This document shows positions 38,486-44,277 of a DNA stretch of 64,000 nt, piece by piece. The stretch spans positions 62,001 to 126,000 of the forward strand of contig JAEUJQ010000060.1 in assembly GCA_016793095.1 (NCBI GenBank), read 5' to 3'. The translations under genes were made by a program, and so were the position numbers. This DNA comes from Myxococcaceae bacterium. GTDB taxonomy: Bacteria; Myxococcota; Myxococcia; Myxococcales; Myxococcaceae. Position 1 is the first letter of the stretch. The number at the start of each line of letters is the position of its first letter. The notes under the pieces were generated by a model that worked only from the letters and a program-made list of their open reading frames with translations, was not told where the DNA came from and ran no database searches.

Positions 38486-38590
38486 GGCGCCTCCGCGCGA
38501 TCCGACGACGAGGGGCGTTCAGCATTCCTCGCGCGCACCCACTCGGCTACCGAGAACTCGTCGGCTGCCCGTTCGCGGAGGGCACAAGAG
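38482..38590 (-). pseudogene. Remnant of the 3' end of a Ser/Thr protein kinase gene
   Basis: About 35 in-frame codons that translate to ALRERAADEFSVAEWVRARN and end in RAEAP, followed by a TGA overlapping the ATG of the aldo/keto-reductase-fold gene. The C-terminus of the intact kinase at 41628-42539 has the same series (ALRERAADEFSVAEWVRARK, ending AEGP). Within it 59 bp (38525-38583 and 41674-41732) differ at only two positions. No kinase catalytic core remains here. The reading frame continues upstream only as antisense shadow of the neighbouring plus-strand gene. Confidence 0.75.
38525..38583 (-). repeat. Copy 1 of 59-bp direct repeat (kinase 3' end)
   Basis: ttcctcgcgcgcacccactc... matches 41674-41732 in the same orientation, with two mismatches in 59 bp. 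The repeats flank the 38683-41631 gene. Confidence 0.85.
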
Positions 38591-38682: not shown

Positions 38683-41631
38683 ATGAGCTTCGCCGTGGCC
38701 CTGTCCGTGCTCGCTCAGGTGTCGGTCTGGCCAACCGTTCCCCAGCTGCAGATCCCCGTCTGTACGAGCGACGCTGGAGACCAGCGCGACGTGAGCGCCA
38801 CGATTGACGGCGAGGGTGGCGCCTTCATCGTGTACACCGACGGTGCGACCCACGCGGACGCGCGGGGAACGCTCCGGGCTCAGCATGTCGATGCCTGGGG
38901 CCGAATCACCTGGGGAAGTCCCTCGTCGGTGGGGGTTCTCCTCGAGCCCGCCACCGGAGAGACTCAGGCCGAACGTCCCCGCGCTGTGAGCGATGGCGTT
39001 GGAGGCATGTACGTGATGTGGATGGACCCGTCCATCGGCAGCTACGGGGTGCTCCGCATGGGCTCGGACGCTGGCATGGCCTACCGGGTCCGCAACCTCT
39101 TGTCGGGACAGAACCCGTGGCACGCCGCCATGGCTGCCGATCGCGACGGGGGCGCCTGGCTTCTCGGCGCTGGTAACCAGCTGCGGCTGGTTCGATTGGG
39201 CCACGCGGCGCCTTCGAACATCATTGCGGTGCACAACGCGATTGTGGGGGGCGCCCGTCTGAGTGTCGATGAGGAGGGCAGGGCCCTGATCGTCTACGCC
39301 GTGGGACTCGGCGGCCCGGTGCGTTTTGCGCGCGCCGTGGCCAACGGGATGAGCCTCTCGGTCGATCGAACCGTTGATCTCCCGATGGAACTGGCCGCGG
39401 GCGACGTCGCGTCGGACGGCCTCGGCGGTGCCTGGGTGGCCTTCTCGGGACGGCCCGGTGGCCCCGGCACCAACTACGGCGTCTGGTTGAGGCACCTCCT
39501 CGCCGACGGAGGCACCGATCTGCTGCCTGATGGAGGTCAGAACCTCGCGCCAGACGGCGGGGTCGCGGTCTTTCCCGATGGAGGGGCTCTGGGGCTGATT
39601 CCCCTCACGAACCTGACCAGCGTGACCAACGCCGTCGGAGTCCGGCTCGCAACCGATCCACTCGGAGGGGTGTTCGTCTACTGGCTCCTGCCCTTCAGTG
39701 GTTCGGACGGCATTCCCAGCCTGGCTCACGTGACCGACGGGACTATCGACTGGTCGAGGCAGCTGGCCAGCTCGGTCGGGCTCCCCCTCGAAGTGAATCG
39801 CTCGCAGACGAACTCACCCTTCGTGGTGATGCCGGATGGGACAGCGGTCGTTCACCTTCTCCCCAACGGCTCGACTCAGTCGCTGATGCTCGTGCCTCGA
39901 ACGGGCACCGCGTTTCTCCTGCCAAACGACATCGCCACTGGCGGCACCCAGTTGAACACCCGCTCGCTCGTTCCCGCCGGGACCGGGGTGATCGTCGCCT
40001 TCGACGATATCTTCGGGAACAACGCCAATGGCGACATCTTCGCCAAGCGCTTCGAGCTCACCACGCAGACGCTGGGCGGTGATGGAGGCTTCGGGGGTGG
40101 GATCGCCGGCGGGGCAGCAGGAGGAATCGCTGGCGGCGCAGGAGGCGGTGGCGCGGCAGGAGGGAGCTCGGGTGGAGTTGCGGGTGGCGGCGCTGGTGGC
40201 GCCACAGCGGGAGGGTCTTCAGGCGGCAGCGCCGGCGGAGTTGCAGGTGGCACCGCTGGTGGTGCCGTGGCCGGAGGGACCTCTGGTGGAGTTGCAGGTG
40301 GCACCGCTGGTGGTGCCGTGGCCGGAGGGACCTCTGGTGGAGTTGCAGGTGGCACCGCTGGTGGTGCCGTGGCCGGAGGGACCTCTGGTGGAGTTGCGGG
40401 TGGCACCGCTGGTGGTGCTGTGGCCGGAGGGACCTCTGGTGGAGTTGCGGGTGGCACCGCTGGTGGTGCTGTGGTGGCCGGGGGGAGCTCCGGTGGAGTC
40501 GGCGGCGGCAGCTCGGGTGGCGCCAGTGGCGGCGCGGGTGGGACGGCCGGTGGGGCGGGCGGCGCGGCGGGGGGAAGGCCCCCGGACGCGGGCGACGGAG
40601 ACGGCCCCGCTTCGCTCTACTCGTGGAAGCCGTGCGGCTGTCAGTCGAGTCCCACGCTTGGACTGCTGGGGCTGGGTGCGCTCGGCTTCTGGCGGCGCCG
40701 CCGCAAGAACGCCGGTCATCTCAGAGCAGCCGCGCTCGCGGGCATCGTGGGCATCTCCACGGTCGCGTCGGCTGGCGAGCGCCCGAGGCTCGCCTTCATC
40801 GGCGTCGAAGCCCAGGCGGGCTTGAGCCCTGGCCTCGCCCGTGCCATCAGCGACTACCTCACCACCGAGCTCGCGAGGCTCGATCTCTATCAGGTCACCA
40901 CTCCCCAGGACGTCTCAGCGCTCCTCTCCACGGAGCGTCAGGCGCAGTTGCTGGGCTGTGCAGAGGGCGGATGCATCGGGGAGCTCGCAGGGGCGCTCAA
41001 CGCCGATCGGATCCTCACTGCGAGCATTGCGAAGCTCGACAACTCCCTCCTCTTGAACTTGACCCTCCTCGACGGGCGCAAGGGTCTCGCAGTGAGCCGC
41101 AGCGGACGCCGGGTGCAGTCGGGAGGCCTCGACGGGTTGCTCGACGCCGCGCCCGGAGCGCTGAGGGAACTCATCGAGCGTGACACTGCAGTGCGCATCG
41201 AGCGCCCCGCGCCCGCCCCCGATGGGGTGCCAGCCGTGTCCGTCGTCGCGGGCCTCCGGGGCGAGCTGGAGGTGCTGGGCCTCGGCATCGCTCCCGCCGC
41301 GTTCGTCACCGTGCGGTTCGGGATGATCGCCGGGGCGGCTGCGCTCATCGCCGTACCGTCCTTCGCCGCGCGGCTCGAGGCCAGGCTGGTCCCACTATCT
41401 CCCGGCCGCTGGAACCCCTACGCAGCCCTCGGCGCCACCTTCTTCGTGAAGCCCGAGTACCTGGGCGCGGCTGGAGCGACCCTGGCTCCCCGCGGCGCGG
41501 TGGGGCTGGGGGTGGCGCTCGGACCGGTTGAGCTCTCTGCCGACGCCGCCCTCGAGTACGGTCTGTTCGCTCCGGCGTCCTACCGCCCGCTGGCCGTCGT
41601 CCTGGGGCTGGGCGCCGGCTGGAGATTCTAG
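38683..41631 (+). CDS. Secreted protein with internal MYXO-CTERM-like signal fused to a CsgG/TolB-N-like and beta-barrel region
   Basis: 982 residues. The N-terminus (MSFAVALSVLAQVSVW) is signal-like. Residues about 25-460 are a beta-rich, probably propeller-type domain. A Gly/Ala-rich linker at about 465-640 contains five 17-residue repeats. Residues 649-675 form a MYXO-CTERM-type signal: Cys651/Cys653, a hydrophobic run (LGLLGLGALGFW) and Arg-rich RRRRK. Instead of ending, the protein continues with a second signal-like segment (AAALAGIVGISTVASAG), a domain like those with CsgG/TolB-N-type folds (LAFIGVEAQAGLSPGLARAI ... CAEGGCIGELAGALNADRIL) and a C-terminal beta-strand array ending in GWRF, as in outer-membrane barrels. 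No in-frame stop or good internal start separates the two halves. Confidence 0.78.
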   Translation: MSFAVALSVLAQVSVWPTVPQLQIPVCTSDAGDQRDVSATIDGEGGAFIVYTDGATHADARGTLRAQHVDAWGRITWGSPSSVGVLLEPATGETQAERPRAVSDGVGGMYVMWMDPSIGSYGVLRMGSDAGMAYRVRNLLSGQNPWHAAMAADRDGGAWLLGAGNQLRLVRLGHAAPSNIIAVHNAIVGGARLSVDEEGRALIVYAVGLGGPVRFARAVANGMSLSVDRTVDLPMELAAGDVASDGLGGAWVAFSGRPGGPGTNYGVWLRHLLADGGTDLLPDGGQNLAPDGGVAVFPDGGALGLIPLTNLTSVTNAVGVRLATDPLGGVFVYWLLPFSGSDGIPSLAHVTDGTIDWSRQLASSVGLPLEVNRSQTNSPFVVMPDGTAVVHLLPNGSTQSLMLVPRTGTAFLLPNDIATGGTQLNTRSLVPAGTGVIVAFDDIFGNNANGDIFAKRFELTTQTLGGDGGFGGGIAGGAAGGIAGGAGGGGAAGGSSGGVAGGGAGGATAGGSSGGSAGGVAGGTAGGAVAGGTSGGVAGGTAGGAVAGGTSGGVAGGTAGGAVAGGTSGGVAGGTAGGAVAGGTSGGVAGGTAGGAVVAGGSSGGVGGGSSGGASGGAGGTAGGAGGAAGGRPPDAGDGDGPASLYSWKPCGCQSSPTLGLLGLGALGFWRRRRKNAGHLRAAALAGIVGISTVASAGERPRLAFIGVEAQAGLSPGLARAISDYLTTELARLDLYQVTTPQDVSALLSTERQAQLLGCAEGGCIGELAGALNADRILTASIAKLDNSLLLNLTLLDGRKGLAVSRSGRRVQSGGLDGLLDAAPGALRELIERDTAVRIERPAPAPDGVPAVSVVAGLRGELEVLGLGIAPAAFVTVRFGMIAGAAALIAVPSFAARLEARLVPLSPGRWNPYAALGATFFVKPEYLGAAGATLAPRGAVGLGVALGPVELSADAALEYGLFAPASYRPLAVVLGLGAGWRF
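40234..40491 (+). repeat. Five tandem 51-bp repeats (GGVAGGTAGGAVAGGTS)
   Basis: Units start at 40234, 40285, 40336, 40387 and 40438. Each encodes GGVAGGTAGGAVAGGTS, and the last carries a 3-bp insertion (extra Val) and ends GGSS. Units 2 and 3 are nearly identical at the nucleotide level, so recent copy-number change is likely. Confidence 0.93.
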
Positions 41632-42539
41632 GGGCCTTCGGCGTGCTCCATCGACGCTGCGTTGCGTCCGGCCTTCCTCGCGCGCACCCACTCGGCCACC
41701 GAGAACTCGTCGGCTGCTCGTTCGCGGAGGGCGCGGGTGAGGTCGACGAGGCTCCGCGGTCGTCGGGTCGGGTCCTTCTCGAGCATCGGGGCCACGAGGT
41801 CATGCAGCGCGGCCGGGATAGCCTCGAGAGAGGGCGGCGCCTCGCGAATGCGCTCCATCGTCTCGACTGGCGTCGCGCCGTCGAAGGGCCGCGCGCCCGT
41901 CAACGCCTCGACGAAGAGGATCCCCGCCGAGAAGACGTCGCTCGCGGGCGAGAGCGGCCGGCCGGCCACCTGCTCAGGAGACATGTACGCGTACGAGCCC
42001 TTCCGCACCCCGCCCCGGGTCTGATCCTTCAGCAGCGTGGCCTTCGCGATGCCGAAGTCGCCCAGCTTCACCTCGCCTGCGAGGGAGACGAGCACGTTGG
42101 TGGCGCTGACGTCGCGGTGCACGAGGCCCAGCGGCCGGCCCTGCTCGTCGGTCTGCTCGTGCAGGAAGGCGAGGGCGGTGAGCACCTCGGCGAGCGCGAA
42201 GCAGGCGATCGGCTCCGGCGCGGGCTGGCCGGCGAGCAGTCGCGAGAGGTCGGCGCCAGCGACGAAGTCCAGACGCGCCCAGGGCCGTCCGTCGACCGCG
42301 CCGAAGTCGTGCGCCTGCACCAGGCCCCGGTGGACCAGCCTCGCCTGCAACCTCGCTTCGTCGAGGAACATCCGCTCCCAGGTCGACTCGCCGACGTACT
42401 CCTCGCGCAGCAGCTTGAGGGCGATCGTCTTCTCGAAGCCGCTGGCCCCGAAGGCGGTGGCCTTGAACACCTCGGCCATGCCGCCCACGCCGACGCGCTC
42501 GAGCAGCTCGAAAGGACCGAACCCGCAGGGCAGTCGCAC
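41628..42539 (-). CDS. Serine/threonine protein kinase
   Basis: 303 residues from a GTG at 42539, which gives a kinase beginning just before the P-loop. Longer in-frame starts would run through antisense of the neighbouring Gly-rich gene. Kinase motifs are complete: glycine loop GVGGMAEVFKA, catalytic Lys in IALKLL, alpha-C Glu, HRDVSATN, DFG (LGDFGIAKA) and MSPEQ. There is no transmembrane or sensor domain, so it is soluble. The stop overlaps the stop of the convergent 982-residue gene. Its C-terminal 35 codons are duplicated upstream of the aldo/keto-reductase-fold gene. A PP2C phosphatase and an FHA activator lie within 5 kb. Confidence 0.93.
   Translation of the reverse strand: MRLPCGFGPFELLERVGVGGMAEVFKATAFGASGFEKTIALKLLREEYVGESTWERMFLDEARLQARLVHRGLVQAHDFGAVDGRPWARLDFVAGADLSRLLAGQPAPEPIACFALAEVLTALAFLHEQTDEQGRPLGLVHRDVSATNVLVSLAGEVKLGDFGIAKATLLKDQTRGGVRKGSYAYMSPEQVAGRPLSPASDVFSAGILFVEALTGARPFDGATPVETMERIREAPPSLEAIPAALHDLVAPMLEKDPTRRPRSLVDLTRALRERAADEFSVAEWVRARKAGRNAASMEHAEGP
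41674..41732 (-). repeat. Copy 2 of 59-bp direct repeat (inside kinase gene)
   Basis: Second copy of the repeat at 38525-38583, here in its intact coding context near the 3' end of the kinase gene. Confidence 0.85.
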
Positions 42540-42672
42540 CCGATGACGATAGCCGGCGTTGAGCGACGGCGCTTCCGCGCTGAAGGCTCGCCGGGCGCCA
42601 GGGGTGCCAACGTGAGGGCCACGAGCGTATGATCCTTGCGAGGTGCCAGTGCGCGAGGGAACGCTGCGAGTG

Positions 42673-44277
42673 ATGGCTCGGCGCGGACCGCTGGTGCTGG
42701 TGTGCTGCCTCGGCGCCATGGCTGGTTGCCTCTTGCCGGTTGCCGAAGAACACGATGGCGGAACGCAGCCTGTTGCCGGCGGAGGAGCGGGAGCCAGCTC
42801 ATCGGGCGGCGGCTTCGCTGGCGGCGCGGCAGGCGGTTCGTCCGGGGGCTTTGCGGCCGGCACCGCAGGCGGATCATCGGGTGGAAGCGTCGCGGGCGGT
42901 GCAGGTGCAGGCGCAGGGGGAGGCGGCGGCGCGGCAGGCGGTGCGTCCGGGGGCTTCGCGGCCGGCACCGCAGGCGGATCATCGGGTGGAAGCGTCGCGG
43001 GCGGCACAGGTGCAGGCGCAGGGGGAGGCGGCGGCACGGCAGGCGGTGCGTCCGGGGGCTTCGCGGCCGGCACCGCAGGCGGATCATCGGGTGGAAGCGT
43101 CGCGGGCGGTGCAGGTGCTGGCGCAGGGGGAGGCGGGTTTGCGGGCGGGGCTGGAGGTGGCTTCGGAGGCGCCGGAGCGGGCGGGGCAGGCGGTGGCGCT
43201 GACGCGGGGTGCCGCCTGAGCTTCTCGCCGACGAGCTACACCGCTGGGAACAGCCCGGCGACCGTGGCCCTCGCCGACCTCAACGGGGACGGGTTGCTCG
43301 ATGTGATTGCGCTCAATGAGTTCAGCGCAACGGCGAGTCTGTTCTTGAACGCGGGCGGTGGTGCGCTCGCGCTCCCCACCACCTGGCCGACCGGGCCCCA
43401 ACCGATCGGCGCAGCGGTCGGGGATCTGAACGGTGACTCGCGACCCGATCTCGTGCTTTCGAACTACTCAGGGAACACGTTCAGCGTGCTCCTCACGAGC
43501 CCCGACGCCGGCTTCCTCGCACCGATGGCGTTCTCGACGGGCCTCGGGCCGATTTCAGTCGCGCTGGGAGATCTCGACCGCGATGGCCGCCTCGATGTCG
43601 CGGTCGCGAACTGGCTCGCTGACTCAGTGAGTGTGTTCGGCGGGCTCGACGGCGGCCAATTCGCGCCCCGCTCGACTGTACCGGTGATGGGCAGCCACCC
43701 GTACTGCGTCGTCCTGAGCGATCTGGACGGCGACGGGCTGGCGGACGTCACGACCGCGAACGGAGTGAGCGCGAATGTGTCGGTGATGATCAACCAGAGC
43801 TCATGGACCTTCCAGCCCGCGCGTCTCGTGCCGACAGGGTTGACCAGCAACTGGGTCGCAGCAGGTGACCTCGACGATGACGGGCTGCTCGATCTCGCAG
43901 TCGCCAATGCGGGCACGGGTCAAGCCATGGCCAGCCTCTCGGTGCTCCGCAACACGGACGCTGGCCACTTCAGCGTCTCGGGCACGTACCAGACCGGCCA
44001 GTACCTGCGGACGGTGCGGATCGGCGACGTGAACGGCGACCGGCTGCCCGATCTCGTGGTCGCGAATCACGCTGACGGCACCATCGGCCTCTTCGCCAAC
44101 GCAGACGGCGGTGTCTTCGGTTCACAGCAACTGATCGGCCCGGTCATCGCGGGTGCGGTCCATCTGGAGCTCGGCGACCTCGACGGCGATGGGCGGCTTG
44201 ACGTGGTGGTTGGCACCTACAGCCCCAACGTCTCTGGCGGGGAGATCACGGTGCTTCTCCAGCGTTGTGGTCCCTGA
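42673..44277 (+). CDS. Lipoprotein with Gly-rich repeat linker and FG-GAP/VCBS-type propeller
   Basis: 534 residues from the ATG at 42673, with a lipoprotein signal ending GAMAGC. An alternative GTG lies 30 bp upstream. Residues about 35-185 are a Gly/Ala/Ser linker containing three 35-residue repeats. From about 190 to the end there are at least five FG-GAP/VCBS-like blades with Asp-rich calcium-loop motifs (ADLNGDGLLDVIALN, GDLNGDSRPDLVLSN, GDLDRDGRLDVAVAN, SDLDGDGLADVTTAN, GDVNGDRLPDLVVAN). This predicts a seven-blade-type surface propeller that may bind partners or calcium. It lies 12 bp before the FHA/sigma-54 activator gene and is divergent from the kinase. Confidence 0.88.
   Translation: MARRGPLVLVCCLGAMAGCLLPVAEEHDGGTQPVAGGGAGASSSGGGFAGGAAGGSSGGFAAGTAGGSSGGSVAGGAGAGAGGGGGAAGGASGGFAAGTAGGSSGGSVAGGTGAGAGGGGGTAGGASGGFAAGTAGGSSGGSVAGGAGAGAGGGGFAGGAGGGFGGAGAGGAGGGADAGCRLSFSPTSYTAGNSPATVALADLNGDGLLDVIALNEFSATASLFLNAGGGALALPTTWPTGPQPIGAAVGDLNGDSRPDLVLSNYSGNTFSVLLTSPDAGFLAPMAFSTGLGPISVALGDLDRDGRLDVAVANWLADSVSVFGGLDGGQFAPRSTVPVMGSHPYCVVLSDLDGDGLADVTTANGVSANVSVMINQSSWTFQPARLVPTGLTSNWVAAGDLDDDGLLDLAVANAGTGQAMASLSVLRNTDAGHFSVSGTYQTGQYLRTVRIGDVNGDRLPDLVVANHADGTIGLFANADGGVFGSQQLIGPVIAGAVHLELGDLDGDGRLDVVVGTYSPNVSGGEITVLLQRCGP
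42841..43137 (+). repeat. Three tandem 105-bp repeats (35-residue Gly-rich units)
   Basis: Units start at 42841, 42946 and 43051 with tccgggggct. The first two are nearly identical, and the third is truncated after about 87 bp. They encode the SGGFAAGTAGGSSGGSVAGG-type linker. Confidence 0.9.

Follow-up and report, generated by a model that had tools for sequence, protein, structure and literature searches.

An internal MYXO-CTERM tag followed by a second signal peptide marks a probable polyprotein for two envelope proteins in a Myxococcaceae bacterium

Why a MYXO-CTERM sorting tag should stand in the middle of an open reading frame, with a signal-peptide-like segment directly behind it, is the question raised by a gene in a 64,000-nucleotide stretch of Myxococcaceae DNA (hereafter, the window). 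A first-pass annotation had described a single uninterrupted frame of 982 codons holding the Cys / hydrophobic / Arg-cluster layout of a MYXO-CTERM signal, a charged, hydrophobic stretch ending in Ala-x-Ala (termed SP2 here), a CsgG/TolB-N-like domain, and an array of beta strands ending in Phe, and it had offered a polyprotein and a recent loss of a stop codon as alternative explanations. The open frame was found to span the entire interval, with its parts arranged as follows.

38683..41631, + strand: whole gene (predicted polyprotein), 982 codons, no interruption
38683..38715, + strand: putative short N-terminal signal peptide MSFAVALSVLA, weak, without Lys/Arg
38716..40077, + strand: N-half, four DGxGGAxVxW-type repeats
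40078..40587, + strand: Gly-rich linker, includes a tandem repeat at 40237-40499 (51-bp, 17-aa unit, 5.1 copies)
40633..40707, + strand: internal MYXO-CTERM signal CGCQSSPTLGLLGLGALGFWRRRRK, residues 651-675, TIGR03901 26.3 bits
40708..40773, + strand: second signal peptide SP2 NAGHLRAAALAGIVGISTVASA, residues 676-697, ends Ala-Ser-Ala
40774..41202, + strand: predicted TolB-N / FlgT / PelC-like periplasmic alpha/beta domain, residues 698-840, AlphaFold pLDDT 86
41227..41628, + strand: predicted eight-stranded outer-membrane beta-barrel with terminal Phe, residues 849-982

Comparison with homologous genes favors the polyprotein over the stop-loss explanation, and on sequence grounds we consider it probable that the gene encodes a pair of envelope proteins that are made as one chain and cut in two. 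Under the proposed mechanism, Sec would export the N-half until the MYXO-CTERM helix halts transfer, with the Arg cluster staying in the cytoplasm, and SP2 would act as a fresh signal peptide that restarts export for the C-half. Since SP2 lies directly behind the cytoplasmic Arg cluster, restarted export with a signal peptidase I cut would be the simplest topology. Signal peptidase I would cleave behind Ala-Ser-Ala, freeing the TolB-N-plus-barrel protein for the outer-membrane assembly machinery, and the myxosortase MrtX would cut the chain at the lipidated Cys, so that the N-half could be carried to the surface and anchored there. Both partners would be made in equal amounts off one message, and the two products may cooperate.

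The C-half would need its own export because it is predicted to combine a periplasmic domain with an outer-membrane barrel. For the 285 residues after SP2, AlphaFold modeled an alpha/beta domain followed by eight beta strands, with a mean pLDDT of 86. When the predicted structure was searched against the PDB, the first domain matched TolB and FlgT with VIA Z scores of 12-13.7 (13.7 for FlgT, 12.5 for TolB) and PelC with 12.1, which supports the annotated CsgG/TolB-N-like fold in silico, and the barrel domain matched OprF (VIA Z 17.0), OmpW (16.1), and OmpA (14.6). The annotated strand array is thus recovered as a barrel that has, in the predicted structure, the eight strands and C-terminal Phe of the OmpA/OprF type. 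At the sequence level, the Pfam CsgG model (PF03783) scored 11.4 bits on the C-half, below its cutoff of 20.8, Pfam detected no OmpA domain in it, and a PDB sequence search with a profile of the C-part returned no significant relative.

SP2 also agrees with its first description, with a signal peptidase I cut predicted after residue 697. In all 41 junctions that were read, a hydrophobic run and then a signal-peptidase-like end follow the Arg cluster. By a simple rule, 41 of 41 have a basic region, a hydrophobic core, and an A-x-A or lipobox end (lipobox in two, LTAC and LAGC), a frequency that outside the TolB-N type arises partly by construction, because the junction profile contains SP2. Compared with shuffles of their own letters, 14 of the 15 TolB-N-type junctions reached p < 0.04; the window SP2 was the weakest (p 0.12). 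The weakest parts of the case, SP2 and the N-terminal signal, lie in the window copy, where the latter (MSFAVALSVLA) is short and uncharged, whereas the N-termini of several other members are clear Sec or lipobox signals.

It is unlikely that the product remains an uncut single molecule in which the MYXO-CTERM signal and SP2 form a two-helix inner-membrane hairpin. An Arg-rich loop between two hydrophobic segments fits such a hairpin, and cleavage at SP2 is a prediction from sequence. However, the outer-membrane barrel at the end of the C-half would not be readily inserted and assembled when tethered by two inner-membrane helices, and a cut is therefore expected. Moreover, all 21 aligned junctions have Ala where SP2 would be cleaved, lipobox versions of SP2 occur, and in several members Pro/Lys-rich linkers begin directly behind SP2, as in mature periplasmic proteins. 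That SP2 and the C-half are translated on their own, starting at an internal in-frame codon and with no cutting at all, is very unlikely. The stretch from the tag helix to SP2 does contain possible ATG/GTG/TTG codons in 34 of the 41 junctions, often within the tag helix and ahead of the SP2 core (for example, in L084, L085, and L190), and unfused neighbor pairs use overlapping starts. In contrast, no such codon occurs there in the remaining seven, the window and L052, L088, L184, L186, L187, and L197, and it is for these junctions only that a separate internal start was rejected.

The tag of the window gene, at residues 651-675 and with the layout given in the first-pass annotation, scored 26.3 bits with the TIGR03901 MYXO-CTERM model on the junction peptide (cutoff, 20) and 27.0 bits when the genome was searched; a scan of the entire 982-aa protein did not list TIGR03901. 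With 307 residues after it, it serves as an internal tag and not as a classical C-terminal one. Searching the window genome with the MYXO-CTERM model alone provided an unbiased check, as this profile lacks SP2. It gave 28 matches, of which 25 are located no more than 20 residues from the stop and three are internal; all three internal tags lead directly into SP2. The same genome carries a gene for the myxosortase MrtX (NF040593, 338 bits against a cutoff of 180). The published model of MYXO-CTERM sorting comprises Sec export, lipidation at the Cys, MrtX cleavage, and surface transport (PMC11980579). The internal tag could still be a decayed remnant acting solely as a stop-transfer helix, with SP2 cut and the N-half left unprocessed by myxosortase, and its atypical internal position, so far from the C-terminus, would suit such decay. 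We regard this as highly improbable, since the TIGR03901 score exceeds the family cutoff, the lipidation Cys (Cys 651) is invariant across 15 homologues at 22-44% identity, and C-terminal sorting tags are reported to work mid-protein (PMC11980579).

The polyprotein reading was further assessed by searching 117 genomes of the order with a profile and reading the matches at the sequence level; the C-half searches were independent of SP2, which their query did not contain. The C-half alone retrieved a paralog with 39-42% identity (42% over the C-half) on contig C34 of the window genome, in which a Gly-rich linker, Cys-Gly-Cys, a helix, an Arg cluster, SP2, the TolB-N domain, and the barrel follow one another, and a third fused gene with the same joint is present on contig C13. 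Across the 117 genomes, we found 15 fused genes in nine genomes of four families (f1-f4); 14 genes besides that of the window share the order of parts with a homologous C-half. The first-pass annotation had allowed that relatives might always carry the halves as two genes; instead, each of the 18 TolB-N-plus-barrel genes found is linked to a MYXO-CTERM protein, by fusion in 15 cases and as adjacent or overlapping neighbors in three. In G025, a Kelch protein ending ...CQCQTFPPEAFAAGLVLLLAFRRRRA is closed by a TGA stop, and a separate barrel gene lies downstream. Gene order is reversed in G010 and G112, where the barrel gene precedes a same-strand gene that overlaps or abuts it and carries a terminal MYXO-CTERM; these two barrel genes were accordingly rejected as solo genes. 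TolB-N proteins without such a barrel included no fused case in the sample examined. A loose pattern match that had suggested a fusion at L017/L108 was discarded, as it corresponded to the protein's own N-terminal signal.

The N-halves of the fused genes differ in kind, comprising Kelch propellers (L052, L031, L032, and L086), cadherin/Ig repeats (L033), a disintegrin-like protein (L087), and others that match no assigned kind. The window N-half, possibly a beta-propeller to judge by its sequence although the fold is unproven, had no Pfam match, no relative within its own genome, and no blast match to the N-halves of other members, and single-sequence AlphaFold was uninformative (pLDDT 33). 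Common ancestry of the N-halves was thus rejected; their unrelated kinds imply that the tag, SP2, and barrel form a constant cassette combined with a variable surface part. In a tree of the TolB-N domain, the fused genes fall into three groups, and its well-supported branches imply two or more switches between the fused and unfused states; therefore, the fusion is old or repeated. Elsewhere in the window genome (G000), at L210, L219, and L223, the end of a terminal MYXO-CTERM gene, with its stop, runs 4 nt into the next gene, which encodes a signal-peptide-like protein, an arrangement resembling TraA/TraB that suggests how fusions of this type arise. Near-identical MYXO-CTERM tags approximately 30 bases apart on the same strand but in different open frames (L209 and L230, G000:C79:306599-306795) are possibly a duplicated gene end.

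A recent stop-codon loss or an assembly error that joined two ordinary neighbor genes at a joint without function is scarcely credible: a two-gene form does exist (G025), a small change could fuse genes that overlap by 4 nt, and the assembly is a draft of 93 contigs, but the same fusion occurs in the 39-42% identical paralog as well as in 13 additional genes (12 from other genomes), the tree is compatible with old fusions, third-position GC (0.77-0.87 along the junction and C-half) is even over the joint, and a shared error is ruled out because independent (mostly draft) assemblies have the same joint.

The spread of the joint was examined with a junction profile of 57 columns, built from 21 junctions and searched in 31 relatives and, at E 1e-7, in 195 genomes of the phylum. 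Many long open frames contained full-length junction matches. In the 195 genomes, by our own count of profile matches, approximately 120 of the 136 matches listed span the tag and SP2 without a stop; sequence-level reading covers 41 junctions, and the phylum counts at E 1e-7 rest on the profile matches. The C-halves of the 20 newly read junctions include OmpA proteins, small barrel-like proteins without a Pfam assignment, a VWA protein after a lipobox, proteins ending in a second MYXO-CTERM, and one short protein. In L175-L180, likely relatives of the MXAN_5598 type (barrel plus OmpA), the second signal lies directly behind the internal tag. Judged from these sequences, the joint of tag and SP2 recurs in dozens of related genomes and appears to be a genuine route to protein pairs rather than a product of sequencing error. 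We think it fairly likely that a general polyprotein relay operates in myxobacteria: the tag and an SP2 of either signal-peptidase I or lipoprotein type would link two envelope proteins that are sorted separately, giving fixed 1:1 pairs of a surface protein with an outer-membrane or second surface partner, across dozens of genomes and several classes of C-half unrelated to one another.

Two individual layouts were recorded among these junctions. The frames of L196 (G000:C19) and L186 (G007:C10), 2125 and 1752 aa long, contain an internal MYXO-CTERM with SP2 and close with a second MYXO-CTERM at the very end; by sequence, each appears to be a tandem polyprotein that joins two lipid-anchored surface proteins of the Ig/CARDB kind. 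L201 (G000:C47) and L187 (G007:C35) combine an internal MYXO-CTERM with a lipoprotein-type second signal (LAGC and LTAC) and a MopE-like or VWA C-half.

By the usual teaching, a protein ends with its LPXTG, PEP-CTERM, GlyGly-CTERM, or MYXO-CTERM tag. LPXTG, GlyGly-CTERM, and PEP-CTERM resemble MYXO-CTERM in being tripartite tags of motif, helix, and basic cluster that are cut by a membrane protease; they normally stand at the C-terminus, whereas the window chain continues with a new signal peptide. Here, the sorting tag would be a joint, beyond which the chain goes on, is exported anew, and bears a second envelope protein. The FbcH cytochrome b/c1 polyprotein of Bradyrhizobium is one chain cut at an internal signal peptide to give two envelope proteins. 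Unlike the predicted products of the window gene, those of FbcH are inner-membrane and periplasmic cytochromes, with no sorting tag or surface delivery. If the polyprotein reading is true, it would provide a bacterial counterpart to viral polyproteins, yielding surface complexes at a fixed ratio.

One internal MYXO-CTERM has been reported by name before, in MXAN_5598 of Myxococcus xanthus, where it separates an N-half resembling adhesins from a C-half that is an outer-membrane barrel (Guo, Haft and Wall, 2025; PMC11980579). The authors propose processing and anchoring of the N-half, call internal motifs rare, and suggest that a gene fusion, comparable to TraA/TraB, may explain the layout (PMC11980579). 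MXAN_5598 has also been detected in outer-membrane vesicles (PMC4158809). Its layout of N-half, internal MYXO-CTERM, and barrel C-half is that of the window gene, but its C-half is a barrel plus an OmpA domain, whereas that of the window is a TolB-N domain plus a barrel. TraA/TraB, a MYXO-CTERM surface receptor and an outer-membrane barrel protein encoded by overlapping genes (PMC11980579), is likened to the window gene by layout, in that a MYXO-CTERM surface protein is paired with an outer-membrane barrel; TraA/TraB are two genes, with OmpA in TraB, whereas the window has one gene with a TolB-N domain. The available portion of PMC11980579 contains no mention of a second signal peptide, its conservation, or a lipoprotein version, nor of several C-half classes, the link between the TolB-N-barrel and MYXO-CTERM, or the spread in the phylum. 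In genomes where few MYXO-CTERM proteins have a known partner, the joints described here name candidate pairs, such as a surface adhesin with an outer-membrane barrel, as in TraA/TraB. MXAN_5598 offers a likely example in M. xanthus.

Within the window, the upstream neighbor of the fused gene (an aldo/keto reductase gene) and its downstream neighbor (a kinase gene) both run on the opposite strand, and the gene is therefore not in an operon. An 81-nt direct repeat (88% identical) lies on either side of it, at 38503-38583 and 41652-41732; the repeat is the tail of the downstream minus-strand kinase gene, and a broken copy of this tail sits upstream of the fused gene, which may have arrived via duplication or recombination at the kinase gene. 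A neighboring gene at 42643-44277 encodes an FG-GAP repeat protein that likewise has a Gly-rich linker, in which a 105-bp unit is arrayed in three copies (42820-43136, 96% identical).
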